A DNA stretch of 33,319 bases from an uncultured Pirellulaceae bacterium (GTDB lineage: Bacteria; Planctomycetota; Planctomycetia; Pirellulales; Pirellulaceae), in the NCBI GenBank assembly GCA_938082855.1, contig CALKCC010000240.1, positions 1-33,319 of the forward strand, in the 5' to 3' direction. Of the stretch, positions 6,429 through 13,230 are shown one piece after another (position 1 is the stretch's first letter; every line of letters starts with the position of its first letter). The notes beneath the pieces were generated by a model. That model did no database searches and had not been told where the DNA came from. It saw nothing but the letters and a program-made list of their open reading frames with translations. The translations under genes were made by a program, and so were the position numbers.

Positions 6429-7100
6429 TTATGAATTGGAATCCCGATTCACAACGGTGAAGGCAAGCTGCTCCAATTCCATCGCCAAATCCACGCCGAT
6501 CACTCGCACCTGGGAAGGAACACTGATCGTGACGGGAGCAAAATTCAATATTCCTTCGACACCAACTTCTACGACTTGGTCCACAACAGACTGAGCCGCA
6601 TGCGACGGCACTGAAATCGCGACCAGCCGAATGCTTTGATCTTTCACCACCTTTGCCAGGTCGTTCACATGAAAGACATCCACTCCTTCGACCTTACCGC
6701 CGATCAGTTGAGTATCCACATCAAAGGCTGCTACGATCCGAAATCCTTGTTCATGAAATCCCTTGTATCTCAACAAGGCTCGACCAAGATTCCCAATCCC
6801 GATCAAGGCAACATTCCAAATGCTGTCTGTTCCCATGATGTGCTTGATGGCTGCCACAAGTTCCTGACAGCGGTAACCAACTCCGGGATGGCCAAACTGG
6901 CCAAAATAAGCCAGGTCTTTTCGAACCTGAGCATCCGTCACTCCCAGTAGTCGCCCCAATTCAGTGCTATTGGTGGTCTCATTGCCATCACGAATCAGGT
7001 GCTGCACTTCCCGCAAATACAAACTCAGACGCCCGACGACCGCTTTCGGCACGACGAGTTCTCCCTGATCGTTGTAAAGTCTGGACTTGTGCTCGGACAT
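6429..7100 (-). CDS. rex: Redox-sensing transcriptional repressor Rex
   Basis: Rex senses the NADH/NAD+ ratio and represses fermentation and respiration genes when NADH is low. The 223-residue length is typical. The N-terminal winged helix (about residues 15-85) shows VVGRLSLYLREVQHL, NSTELGRLLGVTDAQVRKDLAYFGQFGHPGVGY, closely matching the Rex DNA-binding domain. The Rossmann domain follows with GIGNLG (101-106) and AAFDVD, the acidic end of beta-2 that holds the ribose. The C-terminus resembles the swapped helix of Rex dimers. I did not find a classical TTGTGA-N6-TCACAA Rex operator immediately upstream. An 8-bp inverted repeat CGGTAAAA...TTTTACCG (7110-7152) lies directly before the start and could be a regulatory site. 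Confidence 0.95.
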   Translation of the reverse strand: MSEHKSRLYNDQGELVVPKAVVGRLSLYLREVQHLIRDGNETTNSTELGRLLGVTDAQVRKDLAYFGQFGHPGVGYRCQELVAAIKHIMGTDSIWNVALIGIGNLGRALLRYKGFHEQGFRIVAAFDVDTQLIGGKVEGVDVFHVNDLAKVVKDQSIRLVAISVPSHAAQSVVDQVVEVGVEGILNFAPVTISVPSQVRVIGVDLAMELEQLAFTVVNRDSNS

Positions 7101-7596
7101 CCGCTAGCTCGGTAAAAAGTCACCCTCGTTAACTGCTCACTTAGTTTTACCGGAGAATTGGCGGGAAGGGCAAATATGAGTCTGGAATTGCAGTGGTTTA
7201 ACCTGAAGCAAGGTAATGACGGACCTCTTAATCGTCATACTTTACCTAACCTGAAATACGGTCGTTAAAACCGAGGATATTACAGGCCCGAGACTAAAAC
7301 CCCTTATTTTACCTATCTCGCCTGCCCGAATTTAGATACGGGTAGTCGTAAATAGATGAAATCTACGCTCAAGGTAATTTATTCGGGATTCCGATAATTT
7401 TTTTACGGCCACCTGTGCACCAGCGGGAAGAATTGATTGGGGCATTCAGGATGTAGCCACCAAACCGTACCTGAAACAACTCATCGGTTTGGTTTACTTG
7501 ATGGATCAAGTTTGTAGTCTGCCAGTTTTGGTTCGACAACTAACCATTTCACCTATTAGTCCATTGAGTGAACTTAAATCACCGAAGGAGTACCCC
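7101..7596. other. Divergent intergenic region between rex and the YTV-repeat gene, rich in inverted repeats
   Basis: About 496 bp without a convincing gene. The annotated ORF can be extended to 7489, but the first 36 codons look non-coding. Perfect inverted repeats seen are CGGTAAAA/TTTTACCG (7110-7117 and 7145-7152), CCAAACCG/CGGTTTGG (7460-7467 and 7485-7492), and CTTGAT-GG-ATCAAG (7497-7510). An imperfect one, AGGTAATGACG/CGTCAT...TACCT, spans 7211-7247. Short TTTACC and CCTGAA words recur. A long 5' UTR for the YTV gene or a set of operators would both fit. No RNA family was recognised. Confidence 0.45.
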
Positions 7597-9147
7597 ATGT
7601 TAAAATCACGTTGGAGCGTAACCAGTCTGGCAGTTGCTATCTGCCTATTCATGCTGGATTCAGCTTCGGCTGGATATCTCGGCCTGGCCAACTACCGTAA
7701 TTGCGGGATTGCGGAACCTGAATCTATTTGTGAGTCTCAGGTCCAAACTCATACGATCATGCGTACCAGACGTCGTGTCGTATTCGATCAACAACAGTAC
7801 ACCTGTTATAAGACCGTTTACGATACCGTGGTTGATACCAAAGACATTGAGTGTGTTAAGTACGTTAATGAAACGAAAGTTCGAAACGTAAATTACGAAG
7901 TCGCTCGACGTGTTTATGAAACAAAGTATCGAGACGTAAATTACACAACGACGCGTCCGGTCTGGGAAACCAAGCAACGAGTGATTAACTACACTCAGCG
8001 ACGTCCTGTATGGGTCACTAAAACTAAAGAAATTCCCTACAGTGTGATTAAGCCGGTCGTGGAAACAAAGCAGCGGGTGGTCAACTATACCGTGACGAAA
8101 CCCGTCTACGAAACCAAGACGCGAACTCACACTTGGAATGTCACGCGTCCGGTATGGGAAACGAAGCAACGTACGATTAATTACACCGTGCCCAAAACTG
8201 TTTGGGAAACAAAACAAAAGGTAATTAATTACACCGTTCGAAAACCCATCTATGAAACAAAAACAAGAACAGTCTCTCAGGTGATCCGCAAACCAGTTCA
8301 CTACACCAAGACGGTTCAAATCAAATCGGGACATTGGGAAACTGAAATCGTAGAATGCCCGGGGCCAATCCGCCGTCGCGTGGTTCGAACGCCCGGCTGC
8401 TGGACGTGGGATCCAACCTGCTGTCGCCGTATTTGGGTTCCTGGTAGCTGTGAAGTGGTTGAATACCAGTGTCCGCCTCGTCAGATTTGCAAGCGAGTCT
8501 GGGTTCCAGAGATCTGCACGAAGGAAATCCCTTGTGTGAAATACGTCAGGGAAACCGTCCAAAAGCAGGTGCCTTACACCAGCTGCCGCTGGGTTAATGA
8601 ACCGAAGCAAAAGGTATGTACGTATCGCGTTTGTAAAGTGGTTCCAGAAGCTAAACAACGTGTTGTGAACTATCGCACTTGCCGAATGGTTACCGAAACA
8701 AAATCACGTCAGGTCCCCTACACGGTTTGTAAGTTTGTAAAAGAAAACAAACAACGCACCATTAACTACCGAACCTGTCGCCTGGTTCGCGAACAAAAGG
8801 TACGGACCTGTAACTACAAAGCTTTACAAATCGTGGCTGAAACAAAACAGCGAGTTGTTAACTATCGACAATGCCGACTGGTTCAAGAAACCAAAACCAA
8901 GCAAGTTCCTTATCAGGAATGCAAGATTGTCAAAGAAACAAAAACTCGTCAGGAATGCTATACCGTTCGCAAGCCTGTGAAATACACCAAAACCATTCAG
9001 GTTTGTAAGCGTGTACCGAAACAAGTGCCCTACACGGTTACCCGATGTGTGCCACGAGTTGTTTGTGAACAATATCCAGTGACTGTCTGTACGCCAAATC
9101 CATGCGGACTATTACGACGCAGCCTGTTAAGCAACTGTTGTTTCTAA
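7597..9147 (+). CDS. Secreted YTV-repeat protein, 16-residue tandem repeats
   Basis: I chose the ATG at 7597 because GAAGGAG lies 6 nt upstream and it gives a clean signal peptide (MLKSRWSVTSLAVAICLFMLDSASA). The ORF-track start at 7489 has neither. The mature protein (516 codons with the signal) is almost wholly a tandem array matching the planctomycete YTV motif. Repeats such as RPVWETKQRVINYTQR, KPVVETKQRVVNYTVT and KPVYETKTRTHTWNVT follow one another with an exact period of 16 residues. A Cys-rich, non-repetitive linker follows (CPGPIRRRVV...GCWTWDPTCCRR...CPPRQICKR). A second array of the same period mostly begins each unit with Cys (CKVVPEAKQRVVNYRT, CRMVTETKSRQVPYTV). The protein is very basic. 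Its molecular function is unknown; a surface or cell-wall structural role is inference from export and repetitiveness. Confidence 0.9.
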   Translation: MLKSRWSVTSLAVAICLFMLDSASAGYLGLANYRNCGIAEPESICESQVQTHTIMRTRRRVVFDQQQYTCYKTVYDTVVDTKDIECVKYVNETKVRNVNYEVARRVYETKYRDVNYTTTRPVWETKQRVINYTQRRPVWVTKTKEIPYSVIKPVVETKQRVVNYTVTKPVYETKTRTHTWNVTRPVWETKQRTINYTVPKTVWETKQKVINYTVRKPIYETKTRTVSQVIRKPVHYTKTVQIKSGHWETEIVECPGPIRRRVVRTPGCWTWDPTCCRRIWVPGSCEVVEYQCPPRQICKRVWVPEICTKEIPCVKYVRETVQKQVPYTSCRWVNEPKQKVCTYRVCKVVPEAKQRVVNYRTCRMVTETKSRQVPYTVCKFVKENKQRTINYRTCRLVREQKVRTCNYKALQIVAETKQRVVNYRQCRLVQETKTKQVPYQECKIVKETKTRQECYTVRKPVKYTKTIQVCKRVPKQVPYTVTRCVPRVVCEQYPVTVCTPNPCGLLRRSLLSNCCF

Positions 9148-9190: not shown

Positions 9191-9228
9191 AAACCGAGTG
9201 GGCCTTCCGGGGAACACTCGGTTTTTCT
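9191..9228 (+). terminator. Intrinsic terminator after the YTV-repeat gene
   Basis: AAACCGAGTG (9191-9200) pairs perfectly with CACTCGGTTT (9215-9224) around a 14-nt loop, followed by further Ts (TTTTTC). It sits 44 bp beyond the YTV stop codon. The convergent CPBP gene ends at 9308, and the reverse orientation has only a short T run, so it mainly serves the plus strand. Confidence 0.85.
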
Positions 9229-9307: not shown

Positions 9308-10141
9308 TCATACGTCACTCTGATTGCCCGTCGCGTCGAAGGCATCGCTTAAACCTTGCTCTGCTTCCTGACCAATCAATTGACCAGACAGTTCACGGGT
9401 ACGTCGGTCTAACTGAGTTAAATAAACCAGCGCAATGAAGTCGTATAGAGCATGACTCGTTGCCGCAGGAAGCAGCGAACCTGTCCACTCGGCCAGATAG
9501 CCAAAGTAAATCCCTATCAGAAAGGTTGCCACAAAGTACGTGAGCGAGACGGCATGACAAAGTCCAAACAATAGGGACGTGATCAGGATAGGAATCCAAA
9601 TTCCAGCTTCAGTCCCAACGAGTGACTTCATCCATTGTTGAACAAACCCCCGAAAGAGCCACTCCTCACCGATCCCTGCCCCAATTGAAATGAGCAACAA
9701 TCCCCAGATCGGGATGCCACGAAGCCAGGGCATCAATTTGGTGAGGACCAATTGGCGAAGGTTCTGAAGCGGCTTGAAATGAGGCTCACATAGTTCAGCA
9801 GCGACAAACAGAGCCAATACAGGAATTGTCGCTATACAACCAAAGACAATGGCGGATAACCAGGAATCCTCGCCAATCAATTGCCCGGAGAGACTCGTAG
9901 CATTGGGTAAGTCACACCAGTAAATCAGTAGCAACGCTACAGGAACCAACGCGAATTCCACTACCACGAATTTCAACAGGACGCTCTGCCAAGTCCCCGG
10001 CAAACTGCTGAGATCGTCTGACTTGTCACTTTCTGGCGATTCTAGCGTCAGATCCAGAGGCTGATCGGCACCGCTTTGAGCGTTAAATTCGTCACTGTTT
10101 TCAGCGGCAAATTGGTCTGAATCGCTGGAACTTGCATCCAC
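9308..10141 (-). CDS. CPBP-family intramembrane glutamic endopeptidase
   Basis: Multi-pass membrane protease of the CPBP (Abi/CAAX-processing-like) family. Catalytic motifs are visible: EEWLFRG (Glu159, Glu160, Arg164), FGLCHAV (His196) and SHALYDF (His230, Asp234). They lie within a C-terminal block of several hydrophobic helices (about 145-250). The first 50 residues are acidic and Ser/Asp-rich, probably disordered and cytoplasmic, followed by two or more further membrane segments. I start at GTG (10139-10141), with AGGAGG 8 nt upstream. The ORF track starts one codon earlier at TTG, where the spacing would be only 5 nt. Bacterial CPBP members serve in peptide maturation, immunity or unknown roles; no substrate gene is adjacent. 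It converges with the YTV gene. Confidence 0.88.
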   Translation of the reverse strand: MDASSSDSDQFAAENSDEFNAQSGADQPLDLTLESPESDKSDDLSSLPGTWQSVLLKFVVVEFALVPVALLLIYWCDLPNATSLSGQLIGEDSWLSAIVFGCIATIPVLALFVAAELCEPHFKPLQNLRQLVLTKLMPWLRGIPIWGLLLISIGAGIGEEWLFRGFVQQWMKSLVGTEAGIWIPILITSLLFGLCHAVSLTYFVATFLIGIYFGYLAEWTGSLLPAATSHALYDFIALVYLTQLDRRTRELSGQLIGQEAEQGLSDAFDATGNQSDV

Positions 10142-10587
10142 CAATGAGTCCTCCTATTAATTGGTACTATTTTGGCAAAATAAACGGCCAATGCCGCTTA
10201 TCAGTGGTACTTTTTGCATGGAATCACCACAGTTTATGTGTTTTACGTCAATAACCCCTACTGTAGGGGGTTTTGTTAATTGACACCTTTAGAACTTCGC
10301 TGGTAGATTTACCTACTTATGTTTTGGCCGGAATATTTGACCTAGTTGCCCTTTATTCTCTAGTTAAACGGTCTTGCTCAACGCTCCAGTTTAACTATTT
10401 TGAAGCAAAGGTGGTTTTTCAGGGAAATGAGCGGTTAAGCCATCAATATAACGAACATTCCAGCTATTTACAGTGAGCTGCTTGGCGGAGGTAATCCCCC
10501 AAAAACGCTGACTTATTGCATAACAACAAGCACATTTAGACGAGCCTTGTCTACGGTTCAAAACCCCCAATAGGACAGATTTACAAC
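10142..10587. other. Intergenic region upstream of ppdK
   Basis: About 446 bp between the divergent CPBP and ppdK genes. A short hairpin AACCCCTA-ctg-TAGGGGGTT lies at 10253-10271 and is followed by Ts, resembling a small terminator or attenuator on the plus strand. TTGACA (10280-10285) and TAGATT (10304-10309), 18 bp apart, make a weak candidate promoter that would give a ppdK leader of about 270 nt. The 67-codon ORF from 10273 lacks family resemblance and is not called. Confidence 0.35.
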
Positions 10588-13230
10588 ATGGCAAAAAAAG
10601 CAAAAATGACGTACTACTTCGGTAAAACCAAAACCGAAGGCCGAGGAGTTGGCAAAGATATTCTAGGTGGAAAAGGCCTGAACCTTGCTGAAATGACTGG
10701 AATTGGTCTTCCAGTCCCTCCTGGATTCACAATTACCACCACGGTATGTGACCAGTACTACAAGCTTGGTGAACAGCTTCCTGCCAATCTGATGGACGAT
10801 GTCTCCAAAAACATTCGTACCTTGGAACGAGAATTGAAAAAGGGATTTGGTGATTCCAAGAATCCACTTCTCGTCTCGGTTCGTTCCGGAGCTGCTGTTT
10901 CCATGCCAGGTATGATGAATACGATTCTCAACCTGGGTCTGACCGACGTCTCTGTTGAAGGCTTGGCATCAGCGACAGATAATCGTCGATTTGCTTATGA
11001 CGCTTACCGCCGTTTGATCAACATGTTTGGCGACGTTGTGAAGGGCGTGGACCATCACCACTTCGAAGCAGCTTTTGACAAGATCAAGAAGAAGTACAAG
11101 GTTTCAGAAGACACCGATGTACCTGAAGAAGGACTCGTCGAACTCGTAACTGCCTACAAGGCCGTCTACAAGAAACACACTCGTACACCATTCCCACAGG
11201 ACCCGATCGAACAACTTCGACTAGCTGTCGAAGCTGTCTTTGGAAGTTGGAATACGACACGTGCGGTACGATACCGTGAAGTGGAAGGCATCCGAGGGCT
11301 ACTCGGAACGGCTGTCAACGTTCAGGCGATGGCATACGGAAACATGGGTGAAGATTCCGGTACCGGAGTAGCATTCACTCGAAACCCATCCACTGGAAAG
11401 AACGAGTTCTACGGTGAATTCCTGATCAATGCTCAGGGTGAAGACGTCGTGGCTGGTATTCGTACTCCACAACCTGTTGTCGAAATGCGGAAGTGGAATA
11501 ACGCTGTCTACAAACAGCTACTCGGAATTAAAGACATCCTGGAAAATCACTATCGTGACATGCAGGACATTGAATTCACGATTGAAAAGGGCAACCTCTT
11601 CATGCTGCAAACACGTACTGGTAAACGAACCGGTGCTGCCGCAGTCAAAATCGCCTGTGACATGGTGCGTGAAAAACTGATTGATGAAAAAGAAGCCCTG
11701 CTTCGCATTCCTGCCAATGCTCTGACTCAACTGTTGCTGCCAAGCTTCACTCCGGAAGGAAAAGCAAACGCGGACGTACTAACTCAGGGACTTCCAGCCT
11801 CGCCGGGAGCTTCTGTAGGTTACCCAGCCTTCACTGCTGACGAAGCGGTTGAACGAACTGCCAATGGCGAAAAGGTCATCTTGGTACGTAAAGAAACCAG
11901 TCCAGAAGACGTGGATGGTATGCACAGTGCGGCTGGTATTCTAACCAGCACCGGTGGGATGACTAGTCACGCCGCCGTGGTTGCTCGTGGCTGGGGACGT
12001 TGTTGTGTCGCCGGAGCCGGTGATGTGAACATCAACGAAAAGAGCCGCAGCTTCACCGTTAACGGTCGCAAGTTTACTCACAAGAGCCTCATCAGTATTG
12101 ATGGTTCAACGGGTGAAGTCATGTCCGGAGAAGTAGAAACTTCTACACCTACACTTTCGGGTAACTTCGCCAAGGTAATGCGATGGGCTGACAAATATCG
12201 TCGTCTCGATGTTCGTACCAATGCTGACTCACCAGCCGATGCGAAACGAGCTCGTGACTTTGGTGCTCAAGGTATCGGGCTATGCCGAACAGAACACATG
12301 TTCTTTGAAGGTGACCGTATTACTTCCATGCGTGAAATGATTCTTTCGGAAAACGAGAAAGATCGTCGTAAAGCATTGAAGAAACTGCTTCCGATTCAGC
12401 GTAAAGACTTCGAAGGTATCTTTACTGCGATGAAAGGTCTGCCGGTTACGATTCGCCTACTGGATCCTCCACTGCACGAATTCGTACCTCACGACGACAA
12501 AAGCCAGAAAGAATTGGCGAAAACGATGGGGATCTCACCATCCGCCGTTCGTGAACGTGTTGAGCAATTACACGAAGCCAACCCAATGTTGGGACACCGT
12601 GGTTGTCGACTAAGCATCACCTATCCTGAAATTCTGGAAATGCAGGTGACCGCCATCGTCGAAGCTGTGATTCGATGTAAGAAGAAACGAGTCAATGCAA
12701 TTGCTGAAATCATGATTCCATTGATTGGTACAGCCGCTGAACTAAAATTGCTCCGAGGCAAAGTTCAGGATACGATCGACGCCGTAAAAGCTCGCCGTAA
12801 ATACAATGGCAAGCTGAACATTCTGATCGGAACCATGATCGAGATTCCTCGTGCTGCTCTCACCGCTGACGAAGTAGCCGAGCATGCTGAGTTCTTCAGC
12901 TTCGGTACGAACGACCTGACCCAAATGACATTTGGTTATAGTCGTGACGACATCAACAGCTTCCTGCCTGACTACCTGTCTCAGGAAATCCTGCCTGTTG
13001 ACCCGTTCCAGTCTCTGGATACTACCGGTGTTGGACAATTAGTCGAATGTGGTGTGACCAAAGGTCGCTCAGTCCAAAAAGGACTCAAAGTCGGCATCTG
13101 TGGTGAACACGGTGGAGACCCTGATTCCATCCGCTTCTGCAACGAAGTCGGACTCGACTACGTCAGTTGCTCACCTTTCCGAGTGCCAATCGCTCGACTG
13201 GCTGCAGCACAGGCTGAACTTAGCAAATAG
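10588..13230 (+). CDS. ppdK: Pyruvate, phosphate dikinase
   Basis: Interconverts pyruvate, ATP and phosphate with phosphoenolpyruvate, AMP and diphosphate, linking glycolysis and gluconeogenesis. At 880 residues it has the normal length. Domains in order are an N-terminal ATP-grasp (VGKDILGGKGLNLAEMTGIGLPVPPGFTITT, SVRSGAAVSMPGMMNTILNLG), the swivelling phosphohistidine domain with GGMTSHAAVVARGWGRCCV (catalytic His461), and a C-terminal TIM barrel for pyruvate/PEP. The barrel shows GLCRTEHMFF, FGTNDLTQMTFGYSRDD and GICGEHGGDP (catalytic Cys838). All expected catalytic residues are present. AGGACA lies about 13 nt before the ATG. The gene is monocistronic, bounded by a strong terminator. Confidence 0.97.
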   Translation: MAKKAKMTYYFGKTKTEGRGVGKDILGGKGLNLAEMTGIGLPVPPGFTITTTVCDQYYKLGEQLPANLMDDVSKNIRTLERELKKGFGDSKNPLLVSVRSGAAVSMPGMMNTILNLGLTDVSVEGLASATDNRRFAYDAYRRLINMFGDVVKGVDHHHFEAAFDKIKKKYKVSEDTDVPEEGLVELVTAYKAVYKKHTRTPFPQDPIEQLRLAVEAVFGSWNTTRAVRYREVEGIRGLLGTAVNVQAMAYGNMGEDSGTGVAFTRNPSTGKNEFYGEFLINAQGEDVVAGIRTPQPVVEMRKWNNAVYKQLLGIKDILENHYRDMQDIEFTIEKGNLFMLQTRTGKRTGAAAVKIACDMVREKLIDEKEALLRIPANALTQLLLPSFTPEGKANADVLTQGLPASPGASVGYPAFTADEAVERTANGEKVILVRKETSPEDVDGMHSAAGILTSTGGMTSHAAVVARGWGRCCVAGAGDVNINEKSRSFTVNGRKFTHKSLISIDGSTGEVMSGEVETSTPTLSGNFAKVMRWADKYRRLDVRTNADSPADAKRARDFGAQGIGLCRTEHMFFEGDRITSMREMILSENEKDRRKALKKLLPIQRKDFEGIFTAMKGLPVTIRLLDPPLHEFVPHDDKSQKELAKTMGISPSAVRERVEQLHEANPMLGHRGCRLSITYPEILEMQVTAIVEAVIRCKKKRVNAIAEIMIPLIGTAAELKLLRGKVQDTIDAVKARRKYNGKLNILIGTMIEIPRAALTADEVAEHAEFFSFGTNDLTQMTFGYSRDDINSFLPDYLSQEILPVDPFQSLDTTGVGQLVECGVTKGRSVQKGLKVGICGEHGGDPDSIRFCNEVGLDYVSCSPFRVPIARLAAAQAELSK

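Follow-up and report, generated by a model that had tools for sequence, protein, structure and literature searches.

The window analysed here is a 33,319-nucleotide stretch of an uncultured Pirellulaceae bacterium, part of a 4.16-Mb draft genome, and contains a gene whose coding sequence runs from an ATG at 7597 to a stop at 9147, with an AAGGAG ribosome site upstream. The encoded 516-aa protein matches the YTV family (PF07639) with 228.9 bits against a curated cut-off of 21. The parts of this gene and its neighbours are as follows, with sums x + y referring to positions of facing residues in the window protein:

6429..7100, - strand: Rex-type redox-sensing repressor, divergent upstream neighbour (Pfam Put_DNA-bind_N and CoA_binding)
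7597..9147, + strand: gene for a YTV-family wall protein, 516 aa (open reading frame; PF07639, E = 3.8e-69, 12 stretches)
7597..7671, + strand: apparent signal peptide, residues 1-25, cleavage between ASA and GYLG (inspection by eye)
7672..7803, + strand: N-terminal strand of the predicted hairpin, residues 26-69 (covariation at x + y = 547-551 in segments 40-71, weaker and noisier than elsewhere)
7804..7851, + strand: cap 1 unit, residues 70-85 (anchor PSSM)
7852..8283, + strand: array 1 (arm 1), nine units, residues 86-229 (period test; length equal to array 2)
8284..8331, + strand: terminal unit 1 (IRKPVHYTKTVQIKSG), residues 230-245
8332..8484, + strand: linker, predicted distal end of a hairpin, residues 246-296 (ungapped alignment, covariation, mirror pairs)
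8410..8424, + strand: predicted hairpin tip D272-P-T-C-C276, centre between residues 274 and 275 (centre of x + y = 549; AlphaFold fragment strands)
8485..8532, + strand: cap 2 unit, residues 297-312 (anchor PSSM)
8533..8964, + strand: array 2 (arm 2), nine units, residues 313-456 (period test, anchors)
8965..9012, + strand: terminal unit 2 (VRKPVKYTKTIQVCKR), residues 457-472
9013..9144, + strand: C-terminal tail, residues 473-516, predicted to pair with residues 26-69 (covariation)
9207..9221, + strand: terminator-like stem-loop followed by a T run (consensus match; such matches are no more numerous than in shuffles)
9308-10144, - strand: CPBP/Rce1-like protease gene, downstream
10588-13230, + strand: pyruvate phosphate dikinase-like gene, downstream

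A preliminary description of this DNA had named a secreted, beta-rich repeat protein of the YTV family from a planctomycete, an assignment borne out by the PF07639 match, by the named close relatives (a Rhodopirellula sp. and Pirellulaceae and Planctomycetaceae metagenome bins, 90-99% identical) and by the published location of these proteins in the wall. YTV proteins are major, Cys-rich, SDS-resistant wall proteins limited to the planctomycete group (PMC8567305, PMC5287468), one of them is essential in Planctopirus limnophila (PMC10632474), and the family has been reported from Rhodopirellula baltica, Gemmata and Tuwongella. Consistent with this distribution, YTV matches were present in all 60 sampled genomes of the host's family and in 39 of 292 genomes sampled across the phylum, 37 of the 39 coming from the host's family, order or class. 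Two genomes of the phylum that lie outside the class, in a different family, gave one weak YTV match each (G071, G116). A search of viral contigs for further relatives returned none. The window's genus carries one gene of this kind, and the gene itself is an ordinary member of a known family. After removal of the signal peptide the mature chain (7672-9144) is strongly basic, with 96 Lys and Arg against 39 Asp and Glu, suggesting that it binds acidic envelope polymers. A sequence search of the PDB gave a single, meaningless match (E = 0.63) and no relative of solved structure, and we found no description of the YTV fold in the accessible literature; in the part of a 2021 repeat-modelling paper available to us, a YTV model is given a score of 0.59 and is without a structural match (PMC8078820). 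A Fibrinogen_BP match of 33 bits, below its cut-off of 50, was dismissed as repeat similarity.

The repeats themselves are very regular in their spacing. Lag 16 dominates the autocorrelation, with a mean BLOSUM score of 1.38 for the mature chain, 2.37 for array 1 and 2.16 for array 2, compared with maxima of -0.37, 0.16 and 0.20, respectively, among 500 shuffles with all lags considered, and a weaker period of 8 is also seen. Each array comprises nine 16-mers between a cap unit and a terminal unit, and this cap-array-terminal module occurs twice, on either side of a conserved linker, at a constant lag of 227 residues that separates the two terminal units just as it separates the two array starts. 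The exact 16-residue repeats in two blocks that had been claimed for this protein are thus confirmed in their period and in both blocks, although neighbouring units are only 43-47% identical and the exactness is confined to spacing. The unit consensus, V-x-K-P-V-x-E-T-K-x-R-x-V-x-Y-T, alternates strictly, and Gly (0.0-0.2%) and Asp are near zero. A 332-aa antisense open reading frame (7660-8658, - strand) also spans the repeat gene and most likely results from the codon composition of the repeats. One way to build such a chain would be to fold each array separately into a beta-solenoid, or into a row of short hairpins, with 16-residue coils and a disulfide ladder along one face, as the preliminary description proposed; the exact period, the 8-residue sub-period and the constant place of Cys within array 2 units are in keeping with it, but units with next to no Gly and Asp are not.

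To compare the arrays across the family, we retrieved approximately 160 further YTV loci. Profiles for cap 1, the linker and the tail marked out each array on its own, so that the arrays were anchored separately and their equality played no part in anchor placement. The linker aligned without gaps in 151 of 154 proteins. Array 1 had the same length as array 2, exact to the residue, in 134 of 153 relatives, and these equal arrays took twelve lengths (96, 112, 128, 138, 142, 144, 158, 160, 172, 176, 224 and 256 residues), some of which are not multiples of 16. The 19 unequal cases fall into three groups: eight loci are truncated at contig ends, frame-slipped or poorly anchored (L076, L116, L122, L138, L140, L176, L182, L216); eight have arrays differing by at least 16 residues (L079, L084, L089, L094, L133, L134, L143, L198), all in fragmented assemblies of 60 to 820 contigs, for which repeat collapse in drafts is a plausible but unproven explanation; and three from one genus (L166, L179 and L212, genus g46) have arrays of 144 and 146 residues, array 2 containing two units of 17 residues, in what looks like a tolerated mismatch. 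A divergent YTV-like protein with irregular 12-, 14- and 16-residue units was also observed (L131, G038:C273:31500-37000).

Equal lengths of this kind are not required by the solenoid model, and could also arise if the arrays shared ancestry or the protein had duplicated, with no pairing involved. The two halves do resemble a duplicated cap-array-terminal module, given the lag of 227 at both ends. On a tree built without the arrays, however, there were 28 length changes in array 1, 30 in array 2 and 32 when both were scored jointly, meaning that roughly 26 changes coincide and that most affected both arrays together; each array moreover retains its own consensus, and short units are arranged in mirror order, which would not be expected from copying a half. 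We therefore give almost no credence to shared ancestry or duplication as the reason for equal lengths.

This mirror order is seen for units of 14 residues, whose order in array 2 reverses that in array 1. One protein (L097), for example, runs 16x3,14,16,14,16x5 in array 1 and 16x5,14,16,14,16x3 in array 2, and exact mirrors, with the g23 clade among them, were also found in L072, L160, L183, L207, L213, L219, L096 and L214. In L075 the order is palindromic and does not discriminate between mirrored and same order, and in no protein of the YTV set were short units in a non-palindromic same order. A further case comes from another family, in which L116 has seven short units among the 19 of each array; its two arrays, 292 and 292 residues once a 1-nt frame slip near the end is allowed for (read by hand), are exact mirrors and not identical orders. 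Mirrored short units imply antiparallel pairing of the arrays.

Covariation between the arms points to the same arrangement. We computed APC-corrected mutual information between the two arrays in 88 proteins of the 144/144 type and found peaks on three antidiagonals two apart, at x + y = 547, 549 and 551 in window numbering, with whole-chain z of 12.2, 12.0 and 13.7 and far lower values at odd-parity sums; all 16-residue segments between residue 40 and the tip contribute. Three antidiagonals of the same parity are the pattern predicted for one antiparallel beta-ladder. The signal reappeared in each of two non-overlapping clades (9.3/7.7/9.0 in the first; 5.7 at 547 and 4.1 at 551 in the second) and in 45 proteins whose arrays have other lengths, for which the alignment started at the tip, took in the linker and ran outward (13.7/7.2/5.6). 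Overall, the covariation statistic was 27.0, compared with 6.7 under free shuffling and 14.9 (sd 0.8) when array 2 was shuffled within clusters, so part of the covariation follows phylogeny, and alignment depth was small (Neff 19-49). Within the arrays there was no local-hairpin (turn) signal, the maximum being 2.3 as opposed to 9.3 between arrays. With no turn covariation inside the arrays, and with the arrays pairing antiparallel along the whole chain, a solenoid of stacked 16-residue coils becomes very improbable, and this part of the earlier proposal is set aside.

Covariation alone cannot separate pairs within a molecule from pairs between molecules, and array 1 of one chain could conceivably pair with array 2 of the next. 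The same register, however, continues across the linker, which is constant in length, and reaches a tight turn. The linker is itself mirrored about T274/C275, with P266-G267 opposite P282-G283 and W269 opposite W280. Structure prediction with AlphaFold was unusable for the full chain and six close orthologs (mean pLDDT 32), giving two weak long strands within array 2, while for residues 199-350 (pLDDT 36) it placed strands at 61-74/79-93 and 48-56/97-105 in fragment numbering, pairs that sum to 153, equivalent to the predicted register of x + y = 549, the inner pair sitting exactly on either side of the predicted tip. With the register carried through the linker, and with this fragment, at low pLDDT, setting the tip strands in register within one chain, we regard pairing between molecules as quite unlikely. 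The linker, which had been described as a Cys-rich non-repeat segment splitting the two blocks, does hold six Cys in residues 246-296, but it is no mere spacer and would close the end of a hairpin.

Taken together, equal arrays, mirrored short units and the covariation register lead us to infer strongly, from sequence comparison, that the mature YTV chain forms one giant antiparallel beta-hairpin with its tip at W-D-P-T-C-C (residues 271-276). Facing unit positions in this register are complementary (Lys/Arg-Tyr, Val-Glu/Lys, Thr-Thr), and because the 16-residue unit is self-complementary when antiparallel, any change of length in one arm must be matched, unit for unit, in the other. A flat two-stranded ribbon does not demand a strict period of 16, a point against the hairpin in its simplest form and one that is met by a sub-model, not exclusive with the hairpin, in which the same hairpin is wound into a double-stranded beta-helix, each arm supplying one 16-residue turn to every coil. 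Such a tube, in which Cys would stack along its length, explains both the strict period and the matching 14-residue units in the two arms, and covariation echoes are present at +-16 (531, 535, 563). These echoes occur on both sides and without the triple pattern, though, as repeat similarity alone would give, and neither strand face is hydrophobic enough for a tube interior, making the wound form unlikely. The two forms differ in size: the tube would be a rod of about 10-15 nm, not a ribbon of several tens of nm, and for the extended ribbon an upper bound of about 0.33 nm per residue gives about 75 nm for the roughly 235 residues of each arm.

The cysteines of the window protein are unevenly placed. 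Of the nine array 2 units, seven carry Cys at the second position of the unit and one at the first, while the single Cys of array 1 is the first residue of its first unit, so that Cys per unit is 1.2 in arm 2 and 0.1 in arm 1. Both values are lower than in most relatives, which have 50-80 Cys per protein compared with 31 here, and most of the Cys-rich relatives have about two per unit in both arrays. The second array is therefore Cys-marked, as had been noted, but the asymmetry is not a rule of the family. In 83 of 132 proteins arm 1 has few Cys, and on the tree Cys there was lost or gained at least seven times, the window's genus being a separate case; arm 2 always keeps its Cys, mostly at unit positions 2, 8 and 13, and array 2 Cys2 is conserved at 85%. 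Conservation of the Cys pattern among homologues, whose absence the preliminary description had said would refute its proposal, is thus found in array 2 and breaks down in array 1. While otherwise like the known YTV wall proteins in its Pfam match far above cut-off, its secretion, its Cys and the Planctomycetia-like families in which it is found, the window protein differs from them in having lost nearly all arm 1 Cys.

That array 1 often lacks any Cys also speaks against the solenoid's disulfide ladder. The insect antifreeze protein TmAFP, a beta-solenoid whose coils are 12 residues long and each contain turns and Cys, shares with YTV its short tandem repeat and regularly spaced Cys but differs from it in that YTV has no turn signal and can dispense with the Cys of arm 1. 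A ladder across the hairpin fares little better: in the predicted register, arm 2 Cys2 lies opposite arm 1 Tyr/Trp6, arm 1 Cys2 lies opposite arm 2 Pro6, and the Cys of one arm generally face Pro, Tyr, Thr or Arg positions of the other. Cys-Cys co-occurrence across the ladder is negative, which may partly reflect two large clades, and on this association intramolecular pairing across the arms was ruled unlikely, contrary to the ladder first suggested. Since the Cys of arm 1 are not opposite those of arm 2 and have been lost repeatedly, any YTV disulfides are probably formed between molecules and not within them. The protein may still form the surface fibre suggested alongside that ladder.

Among nine genomes of the window's genus (G000, G002, G516-G522), one of them 99% complete, there was no match to MurG (TIGR01133) or to the penicillin-binding transpeptidase family PF00905, which fits a protein-based wall; VKOR, a candidate partner oxidase, is absent from the genus. 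A divergent Rex gene lies upstream of YTV in 67 of 153 loci, spanning many Pirellulaceae genera. It occurs in about half of the genera for which 1.2 kb or more of upstream sequence is available, many other loci having too little flank to judge. As none of 66 Rex-YTV gaps contains a canonical Rex operator (TTGTG...CACAA), redox control of YTV is only a lead. Upstream of the YTV start lies a 16-nt palindrome, ACTTGATNNATCAAGT (approximately 7494-7509), and the same pattern occurs in eight loci, all of this genus. The CPBP/Rce1-like and pyruvate phosphate dikinase-like genes adjoin YTV in several other genera too.

We propose that, once the signal peptide is removed, the whole chain would fold as one very long antiparallel beta-hairpin, in which arm 1 would run from the N-terminal strand through cap 1 and array 1 to terminal unit 1, the linker would form the tip with its turn at D272-P-T-C-C, and arm 2 would run from cap 2 through array 2 and terminal unit 2 into the tail, each residue x lying opposite the residue y for which x + y = 549. 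Many such basic hairpins may lie side by side, cross-linked between molecules by Cys, mainly those of arm 2, into what would be a load-bearing protein fabric in a lineage without the peptidoglycan genes tested, and the adjacent Rex repressor may couple YTV expression to redox state. We hold with high confidence to this explanation of a secreted wall protein that folds as one long hairpin, the association of hairpins into a Cys-cross-linked fabric and the tie to Rex being its more tentative parts.

The single-layer sheet of OspA and the G5-E rods of SasG and Aap are built of local strands with frequent turns. YTV resembles them in its long beta-strands, exposed faces rich in Lys, Glu and Thr and lack of a compact core, but differs from them in that each arm is predicted to be an uninterrupted strand of more than 140 residues. 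Chlamydial OmcA and OmcB form a disulfide-bonded protein layer that serves as the wall in a relative with little peptidoglycan, a likeness that would extend to YTV if it too forms a disulfide-bonded wall layer, although OmcA and OmcB are not repeat hairpins. The hairpin architecture appears to be undescribed in the searchable literature, the family itself being known, and if the arms are uninterrupted over about 200-400 residues, YTV is possibly the longest hairpin known. That YTV represents a new structural class, with arms of this length that lengthen and shorten together in evolution by mirrored units and form disulfide-linked, Rex-regulated wall fibres that replace peptidoglycan, is a more tentative view, with the balance tipped slightly against it.

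In conclusion, pairing would keep the two protein arrays matched, much as it does the sides of an RNA stem, in a manner visible in their repeat counts. The register model of x + y = 549 makes specific predictions for arm pairing, tip sequence, molecular length and cross-linkable cysteines, and the giant hairpin would thereby offer a concrete, testable architecture for the little-understood protein wall of planctomycetes.
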